From Amycolatopsis methanolica 239 (lineage in GTDB: Bacteria; Actinomycetota; Actinomycetes; Mycobacteriales; Pseudonocardiaceae), in the NCBI RefSeq assembly GCF_000739085.1, contig NZ_CP009110.1, forward strand, positions 3,410,001 to 3,474,000: a stretch of 64,000 nt of DNA, read 5' to 3'. A program made the translations under genes and the position numbers. Positions within the stretch are counted from its first letter, which is position 1, and each line of letters opens with the position of its first letter. Positions 1 through 10,918 of this stretch are shown here, in pieces. The notes beneath the pieces were generated by a model. That model made no database searches. It was not told the DNA's origin and saw only the letters and a list, made by a program, of their open reading frames with translations.

Positions 1-970
1 CGAGCAGGTCGATCTGCTCCAGCACGGTCTTCAGGGGCAGGCCGGCGTGGTCGATGAGGAACAGCTGGCGCTGGTAGTCGCCGACGTCCTCGCGCATGCT
101 CGCGTACCGGTCGATCACCTGCTGCGGGCTGCCGACCGTCAACGGGGTCGTCGCGGTGAAGTCCTCCATCGACGGGCCGTGGCCGTAGACCGGGGCGTTG
201 TCGAAGTAGGGGCGGAACTCGTTCCACGCGTCCTGGGAGTTCTTGCGCATGAAGACCTGCCCGCCGAGCCCGACGATCGCGGTGTCGGCCGGGCCGTGCC
301 CGTAGTGCTCGAAGCGCTGGCGGTAGAAGCGCACCATCTGCTTCGTGTGCGACATGGGCCAGAAGATGTTGTTGTGGAAGAAGCCGTCGCTGTAGTAGGC
401 GGCCTGCTCGGCGATCTCCGGGCTGCGGATCGAGCCGTGCCAGACGAACGGCGGGACCCCGTCGAGCGGGCGCGGGGTGGCGGTGAAGCCGCGCAGGGGG
501 GTGCGGAAGTTGCCCTCCCAGTCGACCACGTCCTCCTCCCAGAGGCGGCGCAGCAGGGCGTAGTTCTCGATCGCCAGCGGGATGCCCTGGCGGATGTCCT
601 GGCCGAACCACGGGTAGACCGGGCCGGTGTTGCCGCGGCCCATCATCAGGTCCATCCGGCCGCCCGAGATGACCTGCAGCATGGCGTAGTCCTCGGCGAT
701 CTTCACCGGGTCGTTGGTGGTGATCAGCGTCGTCGAGGTGGACAGGATGATGTCCTTGGTCACGCCGGCCAGGTAGCCGAGCATGGTGGTGGGCGAGGAC
801 GCGACGAACGGCGGGTTGTGGTGCTCGCCGGTGGCGAAGACGTCGAGCCCGGCCTGGTCGGCGTGCTGGGCGATGGTCAGCATCGACCGCACGCGCTGGG
901 TGTCGTCCGGAGTTTCGCCGGTCGTCGGATCCGTGGTCACGTCGCTGACGGAGAAGATCCCGAACTGCAT
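1..970 (-). CDS. LLM-class flavin-dependent oxidoreductase (3' end cut by window edge)
   Basis: About 323 residues are visible and the gene runs off the left edge. The protein begins MQFGIFSVSD and reads as a bacterial luciferase-like (alpha/beta barrel) monooxygenase. Family features are the ATGEHHNPPF segment after the first strands, the SGGRMDLMMGRG stretch that contacts flavin, and PPFVWHGS later on. Such enzymes use FMN or F420 to oxidise small organic substrates; the substrate cannot be told from sequence. ATG at 968-970 is the start, preceded on the coding strand by GGAGGC. It is monocistronic as far as visible, with an inverted repeat 40-70 bases upstream (1009-1039). Family assignment is firm, cofactor and substrate are open. 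Confidence 0.85.
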   Translation of the reverse strand, partial: MQFGIFSVSDVTTDPTTGETPDDTQRVRSMLTIAQHADQAGLDVFATGEHHNPPFVASSPTTMLGYLAGVTKDIILSTSTTLITTNDPVKIAEDYAMLQVISGGRMDLMMGRGNTGPVYPWFGQDIRQGIPLAIENYALLRRLWEEDVVDWEGNFRTPLRGFTATPRPLDGVPPFVWHGSIRSPEIAEQAAYYSDGFFHNNIFWPMSHTKQMVRFYRQRFEHYGHGPADTAIVGLGGQVFMRKNSQDAWNEFRPYFDNAPVYGHGPSMEDFTATTPLTVGSPQQVIDRYASMREDVGDYQRQLFLIDHAGLPLKTVLEQIDLL

Positions 971-1203: not shown

Positions 1204-2157
1204 CTAACGGCTGGTCCAGCGCCGATGAGTGTCCGGGTCCACGTTGCTCCCGCAGATGATCGTGACCACGTGCCGCCCGGCGAAGCGCTCGCGGTCCTCC
1301 AGCACCGCGGCCACCCCGAGCGCCGCCGACGGCTCGACCACCAGGCCGGCGTGGTCGAGCAGCAGCCGCATCCCCGTGGTGATCGACTCCTCGCGCGCCA
1401 GGACCGCGTCGTCGGCCACCTGCAGCAGGTCGTCCAGCACCTCCGGGATCGGGAAGCGACCGGCGACGCCGTCGGCGATCGTCTCCGCCGACTCCGTCGT
1501 CACGACCCGCCGCTGCCGCCAGGACAGGGTCATCGCGGGCGCGCCCAGCGGTTGCACGCAGATCACCTCGACCCCGGGCGCGAGCGCCTTCAGCACGTGC
1601 CCCACCCCGGTCGCCATCGCCCCGCCGCCCAGGGCGATCAGGACGACGTCGGCCGACGGCGCCTGCTCCACCAGTTCCAGGCCGATCGTCGCCGCGCCCT
1701 CGCACGTTTCGAGGTCCAGGCTGTCTTCCACCAGCCGGATGTCGTGGTGCCGCGCGATGTCCGCCGCCTGTTCCCGTGCCCGCTCGAAGTCGCCGTCCAC
1801 CAGCTCCAGCCGCGCGCCCAGCGCCCGGATCCGGTCGAGCTTCGCCACCGGCGCGGACCGCGCGGCCACGACCGTGACGTCGAGCCCCCGGCGGCGGCCG
1901 GACCAGGCCAGCGCCTGCCCGAGGTTGCCCGCGCTCGCGCACACCACCGCACCCGAGCCGAGCGCGTCAGCGATCACCTCGGTCCCGCGGCCCTTGAAGC
2001 AGCGCACCGGGTTGGCCGTTTCGAGTTTGATGCCGACCGCGCAGGCGAGGACGGGTTCCAGCGCGTCGCAGCGGTAGCACGGGGTGTCGAGGAACACCGG
2101 GTCGATCACGGTGCGGGCGGCCCGGATCCGGGCGGTGTCGAGTCGCGTCGTCAGCAC
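1204..2157 (-). CDS. PLP-dependent threonine dehydratase/serine racemase-family enzyme
   Basis: 317 residues with a GTG start at 2155-2157. The start overlaps the stop of the upstream phosphatase gene by seven bases (GTGCTGA), so translation is probably coupled. The fold-type II PLP family is shown by the lysine motif CFKGRG (expected Schiff-base Lys), the SAGNLGQALA loop and the glycine-rich LIALGGGAM phosphate-binding loop. Family members deaminate, racemise or eliminate hydroxy-amino acids. It is the last gene of a minus-strand run GTP cyclohydrolase II homologue, phosphatase, PLP enzyme, so its substrate may belong to that pathway rather than to isoleucine synthesis. No C-terminal ACT domain is present, against a biosynthetic IlvA. 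Confidence 0.8.
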   Translation of the reverse strand: MLTTRLDTARIRAARTVIDPVFLDTPCYRCDALEPVLACAVGIKLETANPVRCFKGRGTEVIADALGSGAVVCASAGNLGQALAWSGRRRGLDVTVVAARSAPVAKLDRIRALGARLELVDGDFERAREQAADIARHHDIRLVEDSLDLETCEGAATIGLELVEQAPSADVVLIALGGGAMATGVGHVLKALAPGVEVICVQPLGAPAMTLSWRQRRVVTTESAETIADGVAGRFPIPEVLDDLLQVADDAVLAREESITTGMRLLLDHAGLVVEPSAALGVAAVLEDRERFAGRHVVTIICGSNVDPDTHRRWTSR

Positions 2158-2927
2158 GCGCGCAACAGTTCCAGCACCACGTCCCGCAGCCCCGGAGCCA
2201 GTGCGATCGTCGACGCCGAGGACACCGTGTGGTCGCTGCCGTCGGCGTCCAGGACCAGCCCGCCCGCCTCCCGCACCAGCAGCACGCCCGCCATCGTGTC
2301 CCACGGCAGGTTCGACAGGATGATCGTCGCGTCCAGGCGGCCGTGCGCGACCCACGCCAGGTCGGCCGCGGCGGTGCCGATCATCCGCACCCGTTCCGCC
2401 CGCGCGCCCAGCTGCTCCAGCAACGCCAGCCGCAGCCGGTTCTTCGGCCCGGCGTCCGCGCCCACGGCGAAGTCGCCCAGCGACACCATCGCGTCGGCCA
2501 GCTCTGACGCCCCGGAGACGGCGATCCGCGTGTCCCCGGCGAAGGCGCCGTAGTGCTCGACCGCGGTGTAGACCGTGTCGAGGAACGGCAGGTCGATCGC
2601 CGCCACCACGCTGCGCTCGCCGGACACCAGAGCCAGCGAGATCCCGGTGAGTGGGATGCCGCGCGCGAAGTTCGCCGTCCCGTCGACCGGGTCCAGCACC
2701 CACCACAGCGCGCCCCGCTCGCCGCCGTGCTCCTCGCCGACCAGCCCGATGTCCGGCGTCTCCCGTGCGAGGAACTCCCGCACCGCCTCCTCGACCGCCA
2801 GGTCGATGTCGGTCACCAGGTCGCGCTCGCTCTTCGCGGTCACCGACCGCGGCGCGCGGGAGGTGACGATGCGCCGCCCGATCGCGACGGCTTCCCTGGC
2901 GACGGGCAGCAGGCTCAGGTGGTCCAC
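2151..2927 (-). CDS. Inositol monophosphatase-family phosphatase
   Basis: 258 residues, usual length for the IMPase/SuhB family of Mg-dependent phosphomonoesterases. Metal-binding motifs are all present: GEEHGG, then WVLDPVDGTANF (the DPxDGT signature), and WDTMAGVLLVREAGG near the C-terminus. The gene starts one base after the stop of the GTP cyclohydrolase II homologue and overlaps the next PLP gene, so the three form a tight operon. In this context it may dephosphorylate a ribosyl- or pyrimidine-phosphate made from GTP rather than inositol phosphate; that is inference. Histidinol-phosphatase (HisN) is a family alternative but no his genes are near. Confidence 0.85.
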   Translation of the reverse strand: MDHLSLLPVAREAVAIGRRIVTSRAPRSVTAKSERDLVTDIDLAVEEAVREFLARETPDIGLVGEEHGGERGALWWVLDPVDGTANFARGIPLTGISLALVSGERSVVAAIDLPFLDTVYTAVEHYGAFAGDTRIAVSGASELADAMVSLGDFAVGADAGPKNRLRLALLEQLGARAERVRMIGTAAADLAWVAHGRLDATIILSNLPWDTMAGVLLVREAGGLVLDADGSDHTVSSASTIALAPGLRDVVLELLRAC

Positions 2928-2928
2928 G

Positions 2929-3528
2929 TCAGTGCTCCGCGACGTCGAAGGTGTCCACCTGCGGCAGGACGTGCCCGAGGCGGTCGCGCTTGGCGGTCAG
3001 GTACCGGATGTTGTCCGGGCTGGCCGGCGCCAGCAGCGGGACCCGTGCCGACACGCGGATCCCGTTCGACTCCAGCGCCGCGATCTTGTCCGGGTTGTTG
3101 GACATCAGCCGCACCGACCGCACGCCCAGGTGGCGCAGCACCCGCGCGGCGGGGCTGTAGTCGCGCACGTCGACCGGCAGCCCGAGGCTGGTGGCCGAGT
3201 CGACCGTGTCCAGCCCTTCGTCCTGCAGCACGTGCGTGCGCACCTTCGCCACCAGTCCGATCCCGCGTCCCTCGTGCCCGCGCAGGTACACCAGCACTCC
3301 GCTGCCTTCGCACACGATGGCGTCCAGCGCCGCGTCCAGCTGTTCACCGCACTCGCAGCGCACCGCGCCGAACACGTCGCCGGTGAGGCACTCCGAATGC
3401 ACCCGCACCAGCACGTCGTCGCGGCGCAGCCGTCCGTGGGCGAGCGCCAGGTGCTCGGCGCCGTCCCGGAACGCCACGCTGCGGAACTTGCCGCGCCGGG
3501 TGACCAGCGTCGATTCGGCGATCTCCAT
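2929..3528 (-). CDS. ribA: GTP cyclohydrolase II homologue with His in place of the key Tyr
   Basis: 199 residues. Zn ligands Cys47, Cys58 and Cys60 lie in HSECLTGD...RCECG, and the GHEGRGIGL substrate loop is intact, so a GTP ring-opening enzyme is clear. Aligning KVRTHVLQD with the E. coli RibA stretch KIRAYALQD puts His99 at the position of catalytic Tyr105. From memory, the Streptomyces coelicolor paralogue SCO6655 lacks this Tyr and stops at the formylated pyrimidine (FAPy) instead of releasing formate; the same is likely here. No DHBP synthase domain and no riboflavin genes are nearby, and a deformylase-family gene is divergent at 3582. Start ATG 3526-3528 follows GAGGGG. The ribA symbol reflects family, not proven riboflavin function. 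Confidence 0.85.
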   Translation of the reverse strand: MEIAESTLVTRRGKFRSVAFRDGAEHLALAHGRLRRDDVLVRVHSECLTGDVFGAVRCECGEQLDAALDAIVCEGSGVLVYLRGHEGRGIGLVAKVRTHVLQDEGLDTVDSATSLGLPVDVRDYSPAARVLRHLGVRSVRLMSNNPDKIAALESNGIRVSARVPLLAPASPDNIRYLTAKRDRLGHVLPQVDTFDVAEH

Positions 3529-3581
3529 GGGTTCCCCTCGTCGTCGACCGGGAACTTGCCCTACCCGGTATACCTGATCTG

Positions 3582-4274
3582 ATGAATCCGCTGCCGCCGG
3601 ACACCACCGACGACGTGCGCGGGGCCGCCGTGGCGGTGCTGCCCGTCGGGAGCCTGGAACAGCACGGCCCGCACCTGCCGCTGACCACCGACACCCTGAT
3701 CGCCTGCGCGGTCGCGTCGCGGATCGCGCAGGACCACGGCTTCTGGCTGCTGCCGCCGGTCACGGTGTCCTGCTCGCACGAGCACGCCGCGTGGCCGGGC
3801 ACGGTGAGCATCTCGGTCACCACGCTGGTCGCGGTGGTCGAGGACATCGCCACGTCGCTGCGGGCCTCCGGGGTGGGCAGGCTCGTGCTGGTCAACGGGC
3901 ACGGCGGCAACCACGTCCTGGCCAACGTCGTGCAGCAGGCCGGCGGCTCGATGGTGCTGTTCCCCACCTACGGCGAGTGGCAGGAGGCGCGCGCGGCGGC
4001 GGGTGTGCGCACCTCCAACGACGAGGACATGCACGCCGGCGAGCTGGAGACTTCGATCCTGCTCTGCGCCGCCCCGGAGGTGGTCAGACCGGGCTACGAG
4101 ACCGCGGACTCGGCACCCGGCGATCTGCGCCACCTCCTCTCGCTCGGACTGGCCCCCTACACGGAATCGGGCGTGGCCGGTCATCCGTCACTGGCTACAC
4201 CGGAGAAAGGCCGGAAGGTGCTGGACGCGCTGGCCCGCGCGTTCCGGGCGCACCTGCCCCTTCTCGCCTCCTGA
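3582..4274 (+). CDS. Creatininase-family amidohydrolase (possible FAPy deformylase)
   Basis: 230 residues. Metal ligands of the creatininase fold are visible in GSLEQHGPHLPLTTD, in NGHGGN and in DEDMHAGELETS. The family includes creatinine amidohydrolase, MftE of mycofactocin maturation and ArfB, which deforms FAPy in archaeal flavin/F420 synthesis. Divergent transcription 53 bases from a GTP cyclohydrolase II homologue that probably yields a formylated product makes a deformylase or related amide hydrolase role attractive; that is inference. Its last 80 bases overlap, tail to tail, the 3' end of the flippase-like gene on the other strand. TATACCT at 3569-3575 could be a -10 element. Confidence 0.8.
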   Translation: MNPLPPDTTDDVRGAAVAVLPVGSLEQHGPHLPLTTDTLIACAVASRIAQDHGFWLLPPVTVSCSHEHAAWPGTVSISVTTLVAVVEDIATSLRASGVGRLVLVNGHGGNHVLANVVQQAGGSMVLFPTYGEWQEARAAAGVRTSNDEDMHAGELETSILLCAAPEVVRPGYETADSAPGDLRHLLSLGLAPYTESGVAGHPSLATPEKGRKVLDALARAFRAHLPLLAS

Positions 4275-5169
4275 GCGCCAGGACCCCCGGCAGCGCCGCG
4301 ACGAGCGAGAGCACCCCGTAGACGACAGCGGTGGTGACGCCCGCGCCCGCGCCGAGGCCGGTGGCCCCGAAGGCGACCGCGGTGAACCCCTCGCGCGGCC
4401 CCCAGCCGCCGATGTTGAGCGGCAGCGCCATGACGACCAGCGCGAGCACGACCAGCGGGACGAGGGTGGTCACCGGCGCGGTCACCCCGGCCAGCCGCGC
4501 GGCGAGGACGAACATCGCGACGTGCCCGGCGATGGTGAGCGCCGACAGCGCCACGATCCCCGCCGCGGTGGGCCCGCCGAGCAGGCCGCGGGCGTCGGCG
4601 AGGGTCCGGGTGGCCGCGCCGCGCCAGGCCGGTTTCGCGGCGAGCAGCCCGGCGACCACGAGCGCGGCACCCAGCAGGACGAGCAGCCCGGGGCCGGTGG
4701 ACAGGCCCGGCAGCAGGTCCGGGTGGAGGGCCAGCACGGTGACGCCGGCGACGAGCAGCACGGCCTGCCCGGCGAACCGTTCGAGCACCACGGCGCGGAC
4801 GCCGCGGCCCACGTCGCCGGAGTCGTGGCCGTGGCTGACCGCGCGGTCGACGTCGCCGAGCACTCCGGCGGGCAGCACCGAGTTGAGCAGGGTCGAGCGG
4901 TAGTAGGCGGCGACCGCGGCCGGCAGCTGAAGCGGCAGGCCGAGGCCGCGGGTGACGAGGACCCATCGCCCGGCGGCGGTGACGGTGGTCAGCAGCCCGA
5001 TCGCCAGCGCGAGCACGACCGATTCCGTGTCGATGAGCCCCAGCCCGGTGAGAAACGCGCCGCTGCCGACCTTCCAGAACAGGGTGGCGAGGATGCCGGC
5101 CGCGGTGAGCAGGCGCAGCCACGGCCACAGGCGGGCTGTCGGTGCGCGGGCGGCGGTGGGAGTGGTCAT
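4195..5169 (-). CDS. Lysylphosphatidylglycerol synthase TM-region/UPF0104 flippase-like membrane protein
   Basis: 324 residues with about eight hydrophobic segments. The layout resembles the MprF-type flippase domain (UPF0104): an N-terminal helix around LLTAAGILATLFW, then AAGRWVLVTRGL, YYRSTLLNSVLPAGVLGDVDR and, late, ALPLNIGGWGPREG, which is the conserved motif of this family. Such proteins move lipids or lipid-linked compounds across the membrane. Start ATG 5167-5169 overlaps the stop of a 58-residue upstream reading frame that is a decayed copy of this gene's own 5' end. It is the last gene of the minus-strand run from 8640 and overlaps the creatininase gene 3' end. The role as exporter of the cluster product is inference. 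Confidence 0.75.
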   Translation of the reverse strand: MTTPTAARAPTARLWPWLRLLTAAGILATLFWKVGSGAFLTGLGLIDTESVVLALAIGLLTTVTAAGRWVLVTRGLGLPLQLPAAVAAYYRSTLLNSVLPAGVLGDVDRAVSHGHDSGDVGRGVRAVVLERFAGQAVLLVAGVTVLALHPDLLPGLSTGPGLLVLLGAALVVAGLLAAKPAWRGAATRTLADARGLLGGPTAAGIVALSALTIAGHVAMFVLAARLAGVTAPVTTLVPLVVLALVVMALPLNIGGWGPREGFTAVAFGATGLGAGAGVTTAVVYGVLSLVAALPGVLALRRREGAGAPGTRGPARPAPSGLSPV

Positions 5170-5424
5170 CGGGCTCCGTTCAACAGGGGGAGCACGCCCG
5201 ATTGCGCGTTGATGAGCTCCAGCCCGGTGAGGAACACCCCGGCGCCGGCCTGCCCGGTGAGGGTGGCGGGGATGGCGGCTGTGGCGAGTGAGTGCAGCCA
5301 GGGCCAGAGGCGGGCCGCTGTCCTGGCGGTGGGGGTGGTCATCGGGCTCCGATCGTGCGCGTGGGCGTGGCCGATCGGGGTCGCTGAGCCGCGGTCTGGT
5401 GCGGGTCGTCATCGGGCTCCGATC
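5022..5424. repeat. Tandem partial duplications of the flippase gene 5' end
   Basis: Copy A (5022-5175) is the real gene start, copy B (5205-5349) is a diverged repeat of about 145 bases, and copy C (about 5402-5424) keeps only the start-site box. Each ends with a near-identical block around CGGAGCCCGATGAC read on the minus strand, which joins a TGA or its remnant to an ATG. Copy C overlaps the methyltransferase stop at 5409. The divergence (gaps, many substitutions) shows this is an old duplication, not a recent assembly artefact. Confidence 0.75.
5166..5341 (-). CDS. 58-residue ORF derived from a duplicated flippase 5' end
   Basis: ATG at 5339-5341, stop TGA at 5166-5168 sharing ATGA with the flippase start. 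The peptide begins MTTPTARTAARLWPWL and contains GVFLTGLELIN. The flippase itself begins MTTPTAARAPTARLWPWL and contains GAFLTGLGLID. Similarity covers almost the whole peptide, so this is a duplicated N-terminus that kept an open frame and a coupling overlap. It may be translated as a leader that feeds ribosomes to the flippase, or be a relic. One hydrophobic stretch is present but weaker than in the parent. No independent function is claimed. Confidence 0.5.
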
Positions 5425-6254
5425 GCCAGCAGGTCGGTGTGGTGCACGACCACCTCGAGTTCGCCCGCGGCGCAGGCGGCCAGCCGCCGCCGGGTGTAGG
5501 CCTCGGTGTCCAGCCACGGTTCCTGCCGGCGGGCGGCGGCGACCCAGCCGCGCAACCACTGTTCGGTCAGCTCACTCTGGTCCGGCCCGAGCCGCCACGG
5601 GCTGGGGGCGCGGTGCACGGTCGCGCCGAGCTGCTCGAACGCCCAGGTCGCCACCGTGACCGCGTCCGGGCCGAGCAGCTCGCCGCGCCGCTGGTGCGCG
5701 TTGAAGGCCACGGCGAGGTCGGCGTCGAGCGGGTCCGCGGGCGTCAGCTCGACCCGCCCGGCGACCGACAACGTCAGCAGGGCCGCGCACCCCGCCGCGG
5801 CGCACGCGCCGGCGATCGTGTCCACGTCGGACGGTGTCAGCAGGTCCAGCAGCGCCGACGCGGTGAGCAGCGAGGTGCCGGTCAGGTCCAGGCCGGCGAG
5901 CTCCCCGCAGCGGGTCTCGAACGTCGCCCCCCGGACGGAGGCGCGGACGAGCAGGCCGGGGTCGCGGTCGTGCAGCACCCAGTGCTGCGGGACGCCCAGC
6001 CGCGGCGCCAGCCAGCGGCCCACCGACCCGGTGCCGGAGCCGAGGTCCTGGACGACCAGCGGGGCGGGACGTCCGGCCAGCCACCGCCGGAGCGGGGTGA
6101 GCAGCTCCGGCGCCCGCGCGGCCGCGTCGGCGGGTTCGCGCAGCGCCAGCCAGTCCGGTGCGCAGCGGGTCGTGTCCGTGCTGCCGGGTCCGGCGCCGTC
6201 CCATCGGTCGTGTGCCACACCCTTGTCACGGGCGCGCACCCGGTTCCGGTTCAA
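5409..6254 (-). CDS. Class I SAM-dependent methyltransferase
   Basis: 281 residues from ATG 6254, or about 269 from a GTG at 6216-6218 that lies just after the glycosyltransferase stop; the latter may be the true start. SAM motif I is VVQDLGSGTGSVGRWL, followed by an acidic loop HDRDPGLL and the post-I region GELAGLDLTGTSLLTASALLD. The acceptor is unknown. It sits between the glycosyltransferase and the flippase in an overlapping minus-strand operon. Related annotation elsewhere calls it a trans-aconitate-like methyltransferase, which says little about substrate. In the proposed pathway it would decorate the pyrimidine or sugar moiety (inference). Confidence 0.75.
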   Translation of the reverse strand: MNRNRVRARDKGVAHDRWDGAGPGSTDTTRCAPDWLALREPADAAARAPELLTPLRRWLAGRPAPLVVQDLGSGTGSVGRWLAPRLGVPQHWVLHDRDPGLLVRASVRGATFETRCGELAGLDLTGTSLLTASALLDLLTPSDVDTIAGACAAAGCAALLTLSVAGRVELTPADPLDADLAVAFNAHQRRGELLGPDAVTVATWAFEQLGATVHRAPSPWRLGPDQSELTEQWLRGWVAAARRQEPWLDTEAYTRRRLAACAAGELEVVVHHTDLLAIGAR

Positions 6255-7269
6255 ACAGGATCCGGTCCATCACCCGCGCGGTGGTCGTCCACGGCAACAA
6301 CCCGTCGCGCCGGGACCGCGCCGCCCGGCGCAGGGCCGACCGCGTTCCCGCCGAGGTCAGCCACGAGCGCAGGGCCCCGGCCAGCGCGTCCACGTCGCCG
6401 GGCGGCACCACGGTCCCGGGCGGTGTGCCGTCCGCCGCCCGGCCGAGCGCCTCGGTCTCCACCGAGGTCAGCACCGGAATCCCGCGCGCCAGCGCCTCCG
6501 TCACCACCATTCCGTACGTCTCCGACCGCGACGGCAGGACCAGCAGCCCGGCCCGCGCGTAGGCCTCCTCCAGCGCCGTCCCGGTCAGCGGCCCGGGGAT
6601 CGTCACACGCGCCGTCAGCTCGTGCCGCGCCACCAGGTCCCGCACCCTCGCGGCGAACGCGGGGGAGCGGTGCACCGGCCCGACCAGGCGGCACGCCCAG
6701 TCCAGATCCGCCACCGCGGCGAGGGCCTCGACCAGCATGTCCTGCCCCTTGTGCGGGGTCAGCGACGCCACGCACAGCAGTTCCTCACCCGACGACAGCG
6801 GCGCGGGATCCGTGCCCGGCGTGACCACGTGCACCCGGTCGCGGGGCAACCCGTGGCGGCGCACCAGCCGCGCGGCCGTTCGCGCGCTGGGCGTGACCAC
6901 CGCCGAGGCCGCCCGCAACGTCGAGCGCTCCAAGGCGTCCAGCTCCGCGTGCGCCCCGGTCTCGTCGGCCAGCGGCATGTGCACCAGCACCACCAGCCGC
7001 AGCCGCGCGGCGTGCGGCACCACGACGTCCGGCACGCCGCACGCCACCAGCCCGTCGATCACCACCAGCGACCCCGGCTCGGCGGCCGCCAGCGCGCGGT
7101 CCAGCGCGGCACACGCCGCCGGGGAGGGGTGCGGCCACGACCCGTCGACCGCGACCTCCCGCACCGGCCTGCCCAGCGCGGTCAGCTCGCGGCTGATCCG
7201 CCGGTCGTAGACGTTGCCGCCGCTGGGCAGTTCCGGATCGTCGACGTCACCCGGCAGGATGAAGATCAC
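6226..7269 (-). CDS. Glycosyltransferase family 4
   Basis: 347 residues, GT-B fold. The N-terminal half starts [24 protein letters not shown], typical of the acceptor domain with a GGN loop. The C-terminal donor domain shows [20 protein letters not shown] and the EX7E region [17 protein letters not shown] that binds nucleotide-sugar. No membrane segment is evident, so it acts in the cytosol on a soluble or membrane-surface acceptor. It overlaps the T-fold gene upstream by 23 bases and the methyltransferase downstream by 29 (or abuts it, depending on start), so the genes are surely co-transcribed. Donor sugar is unknown. Confidence 0.85.
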
Positions 7270-7657
7270 GGTCGTAACTCGCCCACGCCACGTGCGATTC
7301 GCGCAGTGTCACCGAAATCCCCGCCAGCCCGTGCGCGCCCGCGCCGAGCGCACCCGAGTGCACGCGGTCGGCGAGCCGGTCGGCGATCACCTTCGCCAGG
7401 AACTCCGTGGACGTGTTGACCCCGGCGAACTCCGGCACCTCGTCCAGGTTGCGGTAGTTGAGGTCGGCCAGCACGGCGCCCAGCTGCTGGGTGGCCAGCC
7501 CGATGTCGACGACGATGTTGTCCGCGTCCAGTTCGGCGCGGCGGAACGTCGCGTCCACCACGAACGTCGCGCCGTGCAGGCGCTGCGCGGGGCCGAACAC
7601 CTCGCCGCGGAAGCTGTGGGCGACCATCACGTGGTCGCGGACGGTGACGCTGAACAA
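7247..7657 (-). CDS. 6-pyruvoyltetrahydropterin synthase/QueD-fold homologue lacking catalytic residues
   Basis: 136 residues with a TTG start (7655-7657) placed five bases after GAGGAG; the gene overlaps the MDR dehydrogenase by 31 bases. The T-fold pattern [15 protein letters not shown]...RLHGATF matches PTPS/QueD. Canonical enzymes have AAH plus HGH as three Zn ligands and a catalytic Cys before HGH. Here His14 and His28 remain, but the third His is Ala30 and the Cys position is Ala24. From memory, the S. coelicolor homologue SCO6650 likewise lacks metal and triad yet keeps a pterin-type pocket and shows no PTPS activity. A distinct reaction or a binding role on a GTP-derived pyrimidine/pterin is therefore expected. 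Confidence 0.85.
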
Positions 7658-8640
7658 GAGCTCTCCTCGGGGTAGGCGACGCGGTGGCACAGCGCGGGGA
7701 TCGCGCCCGAGGCCAGCCCCGGCATGACCGAAGGCAGGTCCTCGAACACGCACTCCCCGGTGATCAGGGTGTCGAACACGGGGTCGGCGAGCAGCTCCAG
7801 CGCCAGCGCGAGCCGGTCGCCGAAGCTGCGCTGGGACCGCCGGGCCGGGGACACCATGCCGACCTGGCTGCCGCGAATCGTCAGCCGCCGCGAGTGGAAG
7901 AACTCGCCGAGCGGCACGCTGACCCGCCGGTCGCCGTACCAGCTCAGCTCGAGAACCTCGCCCTCCGGCGCCACCAGCTCCAGCGCCCTGGCCAGGCCCG
8001 CATCGGTCCCGCTCGTGTGCACCACGAGGTCGCAGCCGTCGGTGGCGTCGCCAGGCAGGGCGAACCCCACGTCCAGCGCGGCCGCCACCGCAGCGCGCGC
8101 CGGATCCACGTCGACCAGCTGCGCCCGCACCGCCGGGAACCGCGCCAGCAGCGCCGCGACCGCGCAGCCGACCATTCCGCCGCCGACCACGGCCACCCGG
8201 TCGCCGAGCAGCGGCGCGGCGTCCCACAGCGCGTTCACCGCCGTCTCCACCGTGCCGGCCAGGATCGCCCGTCCTGGGGGCACCGCGTCCGGCACCGGCG
8301 TGACCGCGCTCGCCGGGACGACGAACCGGGTCTGGTGCGGGTAGAGCGTGAACACCGTGCGCCCGGCCAGTTCCGGCGGCCCGTCCTCGACCACACCGAC
8401 GTTGAGGTAGCCGTACTTCACCGGCCCCGGGAACCCGCCCTCCTGGAACGGTGCGCGCATCAACTCGTGCTGGCTCACCGGGACCGCGCCGCGGAAGACG
8501 AGCGTCTCGGTGCCCCGGCTCACGCCCGAGAACAGCGTCCGGACCTCGACCTCGTCCGGCCCGCGCGCGGGCAGCGGGACCGTCCGGACCTCGCCCGGGC
8601 CCGGCGGGTTGAACCAGAAGGCCCGTGCGGCACGTGTCAT
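7627..8640 (-). CDS. MDR-superfamily (zinc-alcohol-dehydrogenase-like, BchC-like) dehydrogenase
   Basis: About 337 residues from ATG 8638-8640, which follows GGAGG by seven bases. The Rossmann motif is [20 protein letters not shown]. The usual catalytic zinc cysteine region is replaced by [12 protein letters not shown], and the structural-zinc Cys cluster is missing, as in BchC-like and other zinc-free members. It would oxidise or reduce a hydroxyl/carbonyl using NAD(P)H. It is the first gene of the minus-strand operon, with only 32 bases separating it from the divergent phosphotransferase gene. Confidence 0.75.
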
Positions 8641-8672
8641 GGGCACACCTCCGGCGAAGGGACACGATCACG
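8641..8672. promoter_or_regulatory. 32-base divergent gap holding two ribosome sites
   Basis: GGAGG for the minus-strand dehydrogenase and GAAGGG for the plus-strand phosphotransferase both lie in this short gap. The promoters must therefore reach into, or lie within, the opposing coding sequences. This ties expression of both arms of the locus together. Confidence 0.5.
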
Positions 8673-9371
8673 ATGATCGTCCAGACCCAGCGTGGCACGG
8701 TTGCCGCCGGCCGGGAACAGGCCCTGGCGGCGTGCGGCCTGATCGTGCTGCTGAACGTGCTCGCGATGACCCTCGGCCTGGGGGTGCCGGGCTGGCTCGC
8801 CGGCGCCGCCTACGGCGCGGCGTTGCTGGGCCTGCTCGGCGCCGCGTTGCGCCGGTCCGGCCGGCCGGTGCTGGGGCCCGCGGACCGGGTCACGCTCGCC
8901 CGCGCGACGCTCGTCGGCGGCGTCGTCGCGCTGGTCGCCACCGGGCTGTCCGGGCCGGTGCTGGTCGCGCTGGCGGCGGTCGCGCTCGCGCTGGACGCGG
9001 TCGACGGCCAGGTCGCCCGCCGCACCGGGACCGTGTCGCCGCTGGGCGCGCGGTTCGACATGGAGGTGGACGCCTTTCTGATCCTCGTGCTCTGCGTGCC
9101 GGTCGCGCTGACGCTGGGGCCGTGGGTGCTGCTGATCGGCGCGATGCGCTACGCGTTCGTGGTGGCCGGGTGGCTCGTGCCGTGGCTGCGCGGGCCGCTG
9201 ACGCCTAACCTGGCGCGCAAGGCGGTCGCCGCGGCGCAGGGCGCCGCGCTGGTCGTGGTGGTCGCCGATGTGCTGCCCCGGCCCGTGGCGGTGGTCGTGG
9301 CCGGGGGCGCGCTGGCGGCGCTGGTGTGGTCGTTCGGCCGTGATGTGGGGACGCTGTGGCGGAACCGGTGA
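8673..9371 (+). CDS. CDP-alcohol phosphatidyltransferase family protein
   Basis: 232 residues, multi-pass membrane protein. The family signature D-x2-DG-x2-AR-x8-G-x3-D-x3-D is complete: Asp108, Asp111-Gly112, Ala115-Arg116, Gly125, Asp129 and Asp133. Such enzymes move a phosphoalcohol or phosphatidyl group from a CDP-linked donor to an alcohol. Start chosen at ATG 8673 after GAAGGG; an upstream ATG at 8625 would run into the divergent gene. The downstream sulfatase-like gene starts inside its last 16 bases. No phosphatidylinositol or PG synthesis neighbours occur, so a dedicated lipid or phosphodiester product of this cluster is likely (inference). Confidence 0.85.
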
Positions 9372-10918
9372 CCGCGCGCCGGGTCGCGGCGGACGTGCTC
9401 GCGTGCGTGCTCGTCGTCGCCGCCCTGGTCGTGCCGAACAACCTGGCGCTGTTCGGGCCCGCCACGCTGCTGCGGATCCCGGTGGAGGCGGTGGCCGGCG
9501 TCGCGCTGATGCTGGTCCTGCCGCCGTGCGGACGGCGGATCGTGGCCGCCGTGGCCGGTGCCGTCCTCGGGGTGCTGGTGCTGTTCAAGATCGCCGACAT
9601 CGGGTTCCACCGCGCGTTCGACCGCCCGTTCAGCCTGGTGTTCGACTGGAGCTTCGCCGGGCCGGCGCTGAGCCTGCTCGGCGGGTTCGCGCGGGTCGCC
9701 GCCGTGGCCGGCGCGGTGCTGGCCGCCGTCGCGCTGGTGCTGTTGACGACCTGGGCGGCGATGCGGCTGGCGCGGGTCGCCACGGACCACCGCGCGGTCT
9801 CCGCGCGGGTGGTCGCCGTGCTGGCGGTCGTCTGGATCGTGGCCGCGCTGACCGGGTTGCCGCTGGCGTCCCGCACGACCGCCGCGCTGGCCTACCGCGA
9901 GGCGCGCGCCGTCGCCTCGGATCTGGCGGACCAGCGTGAGTTCGCCGCCGAAATGGCGGCCGACGCCTTCCGCGGCACCCCGTCCGACCAGTTGCTGACC
10001 TCGTTGCGGGGCAAGGACTTCCTGCTCAACTTCGTGGAGAGCTACGGCCGGGTCGCGGTGGACGACCCCGGGGTGACCGCGTTGCTCGACTCCGGCTCCG
10101 CACGGTTGCGGGCCGCCGGGTTCAGCGCTCGCAGCGCGTTCCTCACGTCCTCGACCAGCGGCGGGGGCAGCTGGCTCGCGCACTCCACGATGGAGTCCGG
10201 GCTGTGGGTGGACAACCAGCAGCGCTACCGGACATTCGTGGGCAGCGACCGGCTGACCCTCTCCGGCGCGTTCGCGCGGGCGGGCTGGCGCACGGTCAAC
10301 GTGCAGCCGGAGAACGGCGCGGACTGGCCGGAGGGCGCGGTCTACCGGTTCGGCCGGCTGTACGACGGCCGCAACATCGGTTACCGCGGCCCGAACTTCT
10401 CCTACGCGGCGATGCCCGACCAGTTCACGCTGTCGGCGTTCCACCGCGACGAGATGACGCCCGGGCACGTGCCGTTGATGGCGGAGCTCGATCTGGTGTC
10501 CAGCCACTGGCCGTGGGCTCCGCTGCCCCGGATGGTGGACTGGGGCACTGTCGGCGACGGCTCGACTTTCACCCACACCGGTCCGTCCGTGGACGAGGTG
10601 TGGTCCGATCCGGCGCGCGTGCGGGCCGCCTACGGCGACGCCGTCGAGTACTCGTTGTCCGCGTTGCTCTCCTACGTGGAGACCTTCGGCGACGACAACC
10701 TGGTCCTGGTGTTCCTCGGCGACCACCAGCCCAACACCTCGGTGACCGGCGAGGGCGCGAGCCGCGACGTGCCGGTGACGCTGGTGGCGCGCGATCCGGC
10801 CGTGCTGGACCGCATCACCGGCTGGGGCTGGCAGGACGGGCTCCGCCCGGCCCCGGACGCGCCGGTCTGGCCGATGAGCGCGTTCCGGGACCGGTTCCTG
10901 ACCGCCTTCGGGCCGTGA
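9356..10918 (+). CDS. Membrane-anchored sulfatase/LtaS-like alkaline-phosphatase-superfamily protein
   Basis: 520 residues. About four to five N-terminal membrane helices (residues 10-170) precede an extracytoplasmic domain. That domain opens with LLNFVESYGRVAV and later shows SSTSGGGSWLAHSTMESG, where a Ser/Thr nucleophile is expected, and LVLVFLGDHQPNTS, the metal-binding DH motif of the superfamily. Members include lipoteichoic acid synthase, phosphoethanolamine transferases and sulfatases. It is translationally coupled to the CDP-alcohol phosphotransferase, so transfer or hydrolysis of a phosphodiester head group outside the membrane is plausible. Exact reaction is unknown. Confidence 0.75.
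   Translation: MAEPVTARRVAADVLACVLVVAALVVPNNLALFGPATLLRIPVEAVAGVALMLVLPPCGRRIVAAVAGAVLGVLVLFKIADIGFHRAFDRPFSLVFDWSFAGPALSLLGGFARVAAVAGAVLAAVALVLLTTWAAMRLARVATDHRAVSARVVAVLAVVWIVAALTGLPLASRTTAALAYREARAVASDLADQREFAAEMAADAFRGTPSDQLLTSLRGKDFLLNFVESYGRVAVDDPGVTALLDSGSARLRAAGFSARSAFLTSSTSGGGSWLAHSTMESGLWVDNQQRYRTFVGSDRLTLSGAFARAGWRTVNVQPENGADWPEGAVYRFGRLYDGRNIGYRGPNFSYAAMPDQFTLSAFHRDEMTPGHVPLMAELDLVSSHWPWAPLPRMVDWGTVGDGSTFTHTGPSVDEVWSDPARVRAAYGDAVEYSLSALLSYVETFGDDNLVLVFLGDHQPNTSVTGEGASRDVPVTLVARDPAVLDRITGWGWQDGLRPAPDAPVWPMSAFRDRFLTAFGP

Follow-up and report, generated by a model that had tools for sequence, protein, structure and literature searches.

A conserved actinomycete locus for a putative GTP-derived, lipid-linked product with a proposed archaeal-order riboflavin front end

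Our comparative analysis of an eleven-gene locus (positions 1204-10918) in a 64,000-nucleotide stretch of Amycolatopsis methanolica 239 (contig NZ_CP009110.1, positions 3,410,001 to 3,474,000; this whole stretch is hereafter the window, and the source genome is a single contig of 7.24 Mb) indicates that it probably encodes a dedicated pathway, which would branch off riboflavin synthesis of the archaeal order and, in class Actinomycetes, lead to a lipid-linked product. Gene membership, the co-occurrence of the genes, a residue correlation and a series of gene fusions are directly observed in the sequences compared.

The gene set and its putative GTP-opening pair in class Actinomycetes

The MDR-fold oxidoreductase of the locus was taken to define the system and served as the sole bait for fetching loci. 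An orthologue of this protein (at least 58% identity) is encoded by 32 of the 61 relatives searched, and a search of 296 genomes of the class produced matches at E≤1e-40 in 43. Of the 41 new class loci, 40 were retrieved (all but G132), and the 73 loci obtained were searched with all window proteins, giving 74 loci including the window; a 32% MDR paralogue (L042) and a sister system with a 40% MDR protein (L041) were kept among them. The 74 loci contain the GT4 glycosyltransferase (71), the PTPS-fold protein (70), the CDP-alcohol phosphotransferase (66), the candidate flippase (64), the methyltransferase (58), the GTP cyclohydrolase II homologue (GCH II, 57), the creatininase-family hydrolase (45), the sulfatase-like enzyme (32), a RibD_C reductase (24, of which 20 at >40% identity), the IMPase-family phosphatase (19) and the PLP (pyridoxal phosphate) enzyme (5). 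A scan of species genomes with the MDR protein returned at least 591 relatives. Among the best 80 of these, which partly coincide with genomes of the first set, the counts were 80 for CDP-alcohol phosphotransferase, 78 for PTPS, 77 for GT4, 76 for methyltransferase, 73 for flippase and 67 each for GCH II and creatininase. These 80 include Streptomyces, Actinomadura, Amycolatopsis, Saccharothrix, Lentzea, Kutzneria, Pseudonocardia and others, and the gene set is also carried by Amorphoplanes.

The same set recurs in rearranged orders, 50 of the 80 loci sharing one order and 5 having an inverted block; the commonest, Streptomyces-type order is PTPS-GT4-methyltransferase-flippase-creatininase-GCH II. 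None of the neighbour genes was found at L042, the locus of the more distant MDR paralogue. Although MDR alone was used to fetch the loci, the same arrangement came back repeatedly, more than chance would explain. A neighbourhood search of the kind suggested by the initial annotation thus finds the families together beyond close relatives (in Streptomyces, Actinomadura, Amorphoplanes, Lentzea, Kutzneria and Pseudonocardia, among others). The accompanying proposal that all these families form one system is supported, with amendments: the set does travel together in the 74 loci, but the PLP enzyme is not part of it, the IMPase is exchangeable, and the RibD_C reductase has to be added. The PLP enzyme was rejected as a pathway member because four of its five loci are the window and its closest kin; one of the five is a 30% match only. 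As a separate observation, the sister system at L041 (genome G048) combines its MDR protein with a 110-aa PTPS-family protein, a GT4 enzyme, a HAD phosphatase, a CDP-alcohol phosphotransferase, a methyltransferase and a flippase; it lacks GCH II, creatininase and reductase.

A start from GTP, with GCH II and the creatininase-family protein acting as a pair in the manner of GCHIII and ArfB, had been proposed at the outset, and it gains support from co-occurrence and from a match between one GCH II residue and the presence of creatininase. The three zinc Cys of GCH II (E. coli positions 54, 65 and 67) occur in all aligned rows. At the switch position (E. coli 105) the window enzyme has His (KVRTH vs KIRAY), the residue being Tyr in E. 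coli RibA (2bz0) and in RibBA (4i14). The 57 cluster enzymes carry His (23), Met (18), Tyr (12), Leu (3) or Gln (1) at this residue, and creatininase is present in 45 of 45 non-Tyr loci and in 0 of 12 Tyr loci. The named loci (best 80 of at least 591) comprise 66 non-Tyr enzymes with creatininase and one Tyr enzyme (L124) without; a truncated locus, L142, has creatininase but no GCH II within its stretch. Tyr without creatininase is also the state of 6 of 6 GCH II from deep loci (those outside the class, see below), and all 22 GCH II encoded outside the locus have Tyr. Spoonamore et al. 2006 are said to have linked the switch Tyr to deformylation and to have found that SCO6655, with Met at this position, stops at FAPy.

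The creatininase E, H, D, H and E positions, which we take to be metal ligands, are invariant in 45 of 45 sequences. A creatininase-family protein, SMc02977, has been reported to deformylate FAPy (PMC9478397). A GCH II of SCO6655 type (at least 71% identical) occurs in 22 of 32 MDR-positive vs 0 of 29 MDR-negative genomes (G048, with its 40% MDR, counted as negative), and no genome among the 61 relatives searched has the GCH II/creatininase pair without MDR-PTPS-GT4. A single clade of the 57 cluster GCH II as opposed to the 22 others was rejected (approximately unbiased test, p 0.003); as the cluster enzymes are not one clade, GCH II was recruited to this set on at least two occasions. Stand-alone GCH II of the 'NKLDAY' type, encoded outside the MDR locus (L105, L106 and L107), are sister to the Tyr-type cluster enzymes.

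Core, lipid arm and reductase

The profile of the PTPS-fold family matches PDB 3d7j (SCO6650) with an E-value of 1.6e-81. In the 70 class sequences the catalytic Cys is replaced by Ala (70) and the third zinc His by Ala (69), and the anchor Glu is invariant (70); the 20 deep sequences keep three His and have Ala (15) or Glu (5) at the Cys position. A working pterin synthase was rejected on these residues, the Cys and the third zinc His being lost. With the anchor Glu kept, the protein would be able to hold a 2-amino-4-oxo-pyrimidine ring and would not perform the known PTPS chemistry; the paper on 3d7j reportedly found neither zinc nor PTPS activity, and Spoonamore et al. (2006, 2008) are said to describe SCO6650 as lacking PTPS activity. 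The MDR protein has no invariant Cys among 39 aligned sequences and matches (by phmmer) the PDB MDR entries 2d8a and 2dfv over the nucleotide-binding part. PDB relatives of the GT4 enzyme include MshA- and PimB-type enzymes.

When the whole phylum was searched with MDR, 28 matches (E≤1e-30) came from other classes, and 20 of these were fetched. In all 20 of these deep loci RibD_C, MDR, PTPS and GT4 genes lie within 8 kb (GCH II in six), and in 13 the GT4 gene is followed by another methyltransferase gene, dissimilar to that of the window and not found among the 74 loci. Flippase, CDP-alcohol, sulfatase-like, creatininase and IMPase genes had no match (E≤1e-5) within 8 kb of MDR in the 20. Judging from this distribution, reductase, MDR, PTPS and GT4 made up the ancestral set, in many cases together with a methyltransferase. 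The lipid arm, which the deep core lacks, joined later, is almost always present in the class and was not what the pathway originally served. The expectation that both arms are kept together in relatives is thus borne out within the class, where the lipid genes are near-constant, but not in the deep loci, where the core stands without them.

Within the class, the motif D..DG..AR........G...D...D of CDP-alcohol phosphotransferases is complete in the window, and its residues do not vary across all 66 sequences. In the window, the sulfatase-like protein has the motifs FVESYG, Thr, SSH and GDH (E/T/H/D/H invariant in 32 of 32), which may correspond to the metal and Thr nucleophile residues of LtaS-type enzymes; a PDB sequence search at E 1 returned nothing for it. 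CDP-alcohol phosphotransferase accompanies GCH II in 54 of the 57 GCH II loci, the flippase in 52 and both in 51. Going by the family membership of these proteins, a lipid link in the class is likely.

The RibD_C (ArfC-like) reductase is absent from the window and is encoded elsewhere in the same genome. Its closest relative there is an unlinked gene (L083, 9414-10487) beside nadABC-like genes, whose product has a C-terminal cytidine-deaminase domain, the reverse of the RibD order. The reductase (at least 49% identity) was found in 30 of 32 MDR-positive vs 8 of 29 MDR-negative relatives (p 1e-7, uncorrected for kinship), mostly unlinked, and outside the genus in 14 of 16 vs 6 of 27 (likewise uncorrected). 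GCH II and RibD_C are fused in seven loci: L081, L082, L200, L202, L206, L207 (Pfam) and L208 (by sequence). The nearest PDB entries of the L038 reductase are diaminopyrimidinone/uracil reductases (5xv5, 6p8c, 2azn and kin). We count the reductase as part of the pathway. In a quick tree, the reductases of class clusters group with the unlinked ones, apart from the deep ones (support 86 to 98), which are nearer to RibD of riboflavin operons; the reductase was apparently recruited at least twice. The fusions L081 11817-13172 and L082 13699-15003 are the sole GCH II found in their genomes. As for the phosphatase, HAD phosphatase-like open reading frames (ORFs) occur in 5 of the 74 loci and never in an IMPase locus. 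An essential role of the IMPase, present in 19 loci only, was rejected; on this pattern, at least two kinds of phosphatase can fill the position, the IMPase among them.

Proposed pathway and its rivals

From these family assignments we infer every reaction, the sequence of steps that follow the reductase and the attachment to lipid, as set out here. GCH II without the switch Tyr would open GTP and release the formamide FAPy, from which the creatininase-family enzyme would remove formate to give a diaminopyrimidine ribosylamine phosphate. The RibD_C/ArfC-like reductase (unlinked here, linked or fused elsewhere) would then reduce the sugar to a ribityl chain, and a phosphatase (IMPase here, HAD elsewhere) could take off the phosphate. 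The MDR and PTPS-fold pair would modify the 2-amino-4-oxo-pyrimidine, the anchor Glu of the PTPS fold holding the ring, with GT4 predicted to glycosylate the pyrimidine and the methyltransferase to methylate it. In class Actinomycetes, the CDP-alcohol phosphotransferase would join the compound to a lipid or a phosphoalcohol, the UPF0104 protein would move it across the membrane, and the sulfatase/LtaS-like enzyme may finish it outside. A more specific version, which we advance only tentatively, is that Actinomycetes possess a new class of membrane glycophospholipids, with a GTP-derived, methylated and glycosylated ribitylamino-pyrimidine or 8-ribityl-pterin as head group, made by a PTPS-fold enzyme that has lost PTPS chemistry; aerial hyphae and spores would be where these lipids are used, and a soluble form of the same compound would be older than the class.

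Several observations weigh against this pathway. GCH II is missing from 17 of the 74 loci (some of which end at contig edges), L033 has only the MDR and CDP-alcohol genes, and no lipid genes occur in the 20 deep loci. The 45 non-Tyr GCH II form one tree branch (98/89 support), that is, one evolutionary event; Fisher's p therefore overstates the match between residue and creatininase, and independent repeated evolution of this match, also tested, is not supported. The creatininase-family protein misses the NCBIfam models for ArfB (NF033501; 41.2 vs 180 bits) and MftE (132.2 vs 172 bits). The reductase is present in 8 MDR-negative genomes, and the deaminase domain on the unlinked reductase of the source genome suits riboflavin too. 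No GCH II other than the cluster fusion was found in genomes G330 and G278, where it may therefore serve riboflavin.

The best-surviving rival, which we regard as rather unlikely, is that the same front end and core (MDR, PTPS, GT4 and methyltransferase) yield a glycosylated pyrimidine or pterin in soluble form, for export or storage, and that the flippase and the CDP-alcohol enzyme are there for export or for some other lipid requirement. In its favour, flippase, CDP-alcohol and sulfatase genes are missing beside the core in 20 of 20 deep loci, the sulfatase-like gene is in just 32 of the 74 loci, and the substrates of UPF0104 and CDP-alcohol proteins are unreadable from sequence. On the other hand, in the class the CDP-alcohol gene occurs not only with nearly every GCH II (54/57) but also in all of the named loci (best 80 of at least 591), and it often overlaps the core or forms a divergent pair with it. 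A spare locus for riboflavin or flavin supply is very improbable, even though GCH II, ArfB-like and RibD_C proteins are riboflavin families and the fusion is single-copy in G330 and G278: the eleven window genes include no deaminase, RibB, RibH or RibE (Pfam/NCBIfam), a further GCH II lies outside the locus in 10 of 12 deep or divergent genomes searched, and MDR, PTPS, GT4 and CDP-alcohol proteins have no place in riboflavin synthesis. That GCH II and creatininase form a unit of their own that only happens to lie beside a glycolipid operon, as the 17 loci without GCH II and the joint gain or loss of the two genes might suggest, is similarly improbable given the restriction of SCO6655-type GCH II to MDR-positive genomes, the occupation of the same set by GCH II of another origin and the recurrent reductase fusions.

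Related systems and gene layout

By inference, the SCO6650-SCO6655 region of S. coelicolor, which the initial annotation had named as partly similar, is the same locus. SCO6650 is the PTPS-fold member of PDB 3d7j, SCO6655 is named a GCH II in PMC2853524, and the commonest Streptomyces-type order fits 6650-6655, gene-by-gene identity being presumed; the Streptomyces enzymes differ in having Met at the switch, where the window has His. The dedicated pathway proposed here resembles ArfA-ArfB-ArfC (archaeal riboflavin/F420) in that a formamide would be formed and removed by a creatininase-family enzyme and the sugar reduced before any deamination. In contrast to that route, the ring would be opened by a modified GCH II and not by GCHIII/ArfA, and the locus has no deaminase, RibH or RibE and adds MDR, PTPS, GT4, methyltransferase and lipid genes. 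BrbF (SMc02977) of Sinorhizobium is, like the window protein, a bacterial member of the creatininase family, a likeness by family only, and acts as a FAPy deformylase that, unlike the enzyme proposed here, serves riboflavin (both according to PMC9478397, which names no GTP-opening partner for it). QueD/PTPS enzymes share with the PTPS-fold protein the T-fold family PF01242 and the invariant anchor Glu, whereas the class members are without the catalytic Cys and the third zinc His.

For SCO6652, a gene of the presumed S. coelicolor locus, PMC3610822 lists log2 changes of +4.3 and +4.1 for the aerial and spore stages, which hints at a role in development. SCO6650-6655 has been noted piecemeal (3d7j; PMC2853524; PMC3610822), and the open-access literature searched, with most subscription papers lying outside the search, holds no description of the pathway or its product. 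With at least 591 matches, the pathway would extend from Streptomyces into other classes of the phylum, with no product described in that literature. It would account for two orphans of long standing in S. coelicolor, a GCH II whose reaction ends at FAPy and a PTPS fold that does no PTPS chemistry, and it assigns each of them specific predicted substrates. If the lipid arm is real, a nucleotide-derived head group would be added to those of bacterial membrane lipids.

All eleven families named by the initial annotation were located at one locus, at the positions it gave (Table 1). The names of the methyltransferase, MDR and sulfatase-like proteins rest on motifs and context, as their Pfam scores are below cut-off.

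Table 1. Genes of the locus, with window positions and strand. The PF03706 score was taken on the longer ORF 4195-5559.
Product	Position	Strand	Evidence
PLP enzyme	1204-2157	-	
IMPase-family phosphatase, candidate dephosphorylation step	2151-2927	-	PF00459 169.5 bits (cut-off 27)
GTP cyclohydrolase II homologue, His replacing switch Tyr	2929-3528	-	PF00925 201.2 bits
Creatininase-family hydrolase, proposed FAPy deformylase (ArfB/BrbF-like role)	3582-4274	+	PF02633 210.8 bits
UPF0104/LPG_synthase_TM membrane protein, candidate flippase	4195-5169	-	PF03706 89.6 bits (cut-off 33.4)
Class I SAM methyltransferase	5409-6218	-	DLGSGTG motif; PF13649 18.0 bits, below cut-off 27
GT4 glycosyltransferase	6226-7269	-	PF00534 93.2 bits
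PTPS-fold protein, SCO6650 (PDB 3d7j) orthologue	7247-7657	-	PF01242 79.6 bits (cut-off 22.4)
MDR-fold oxidoreductase, probably without zinc	7627-8640	-	PF00107 24.4 bits, below cut-off 31.8
CDP-alcohol phosphotransferase	8673-9371	+	PF01066 41.9 bits (cut-off 22)
Membrane-anchored sulfatase/LtaS-superfamily enzyme	9368-10918	+	PF00884 18.1 bits, below cut-off 25

The tight spacing claimed for the locus is correct for the divergent gaps (53 bases between GCH II and creatininase, 32 between MDR and CDP-alcohol), but flippase and methyltransferase genes are separated by 239 bases (taking the start used here), which is looser than claimed. Overlaps amount to 31 bases for PTPS/MDR, 23 for GT4/PTPS and 4 for CDP-alcohol/sulfatase-like, and the creatininase and flippase genes overlap tail to tail by 80 bases. 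LysR and downstream genes were rejected as part of the set, being found only in close relatives. At window 2-970 lies an ORF of a 10-locus family that reads like an LLM-class flavin-dependent oxidoreductase (naming by eye); it adjoins the PLP gene in close relatives.

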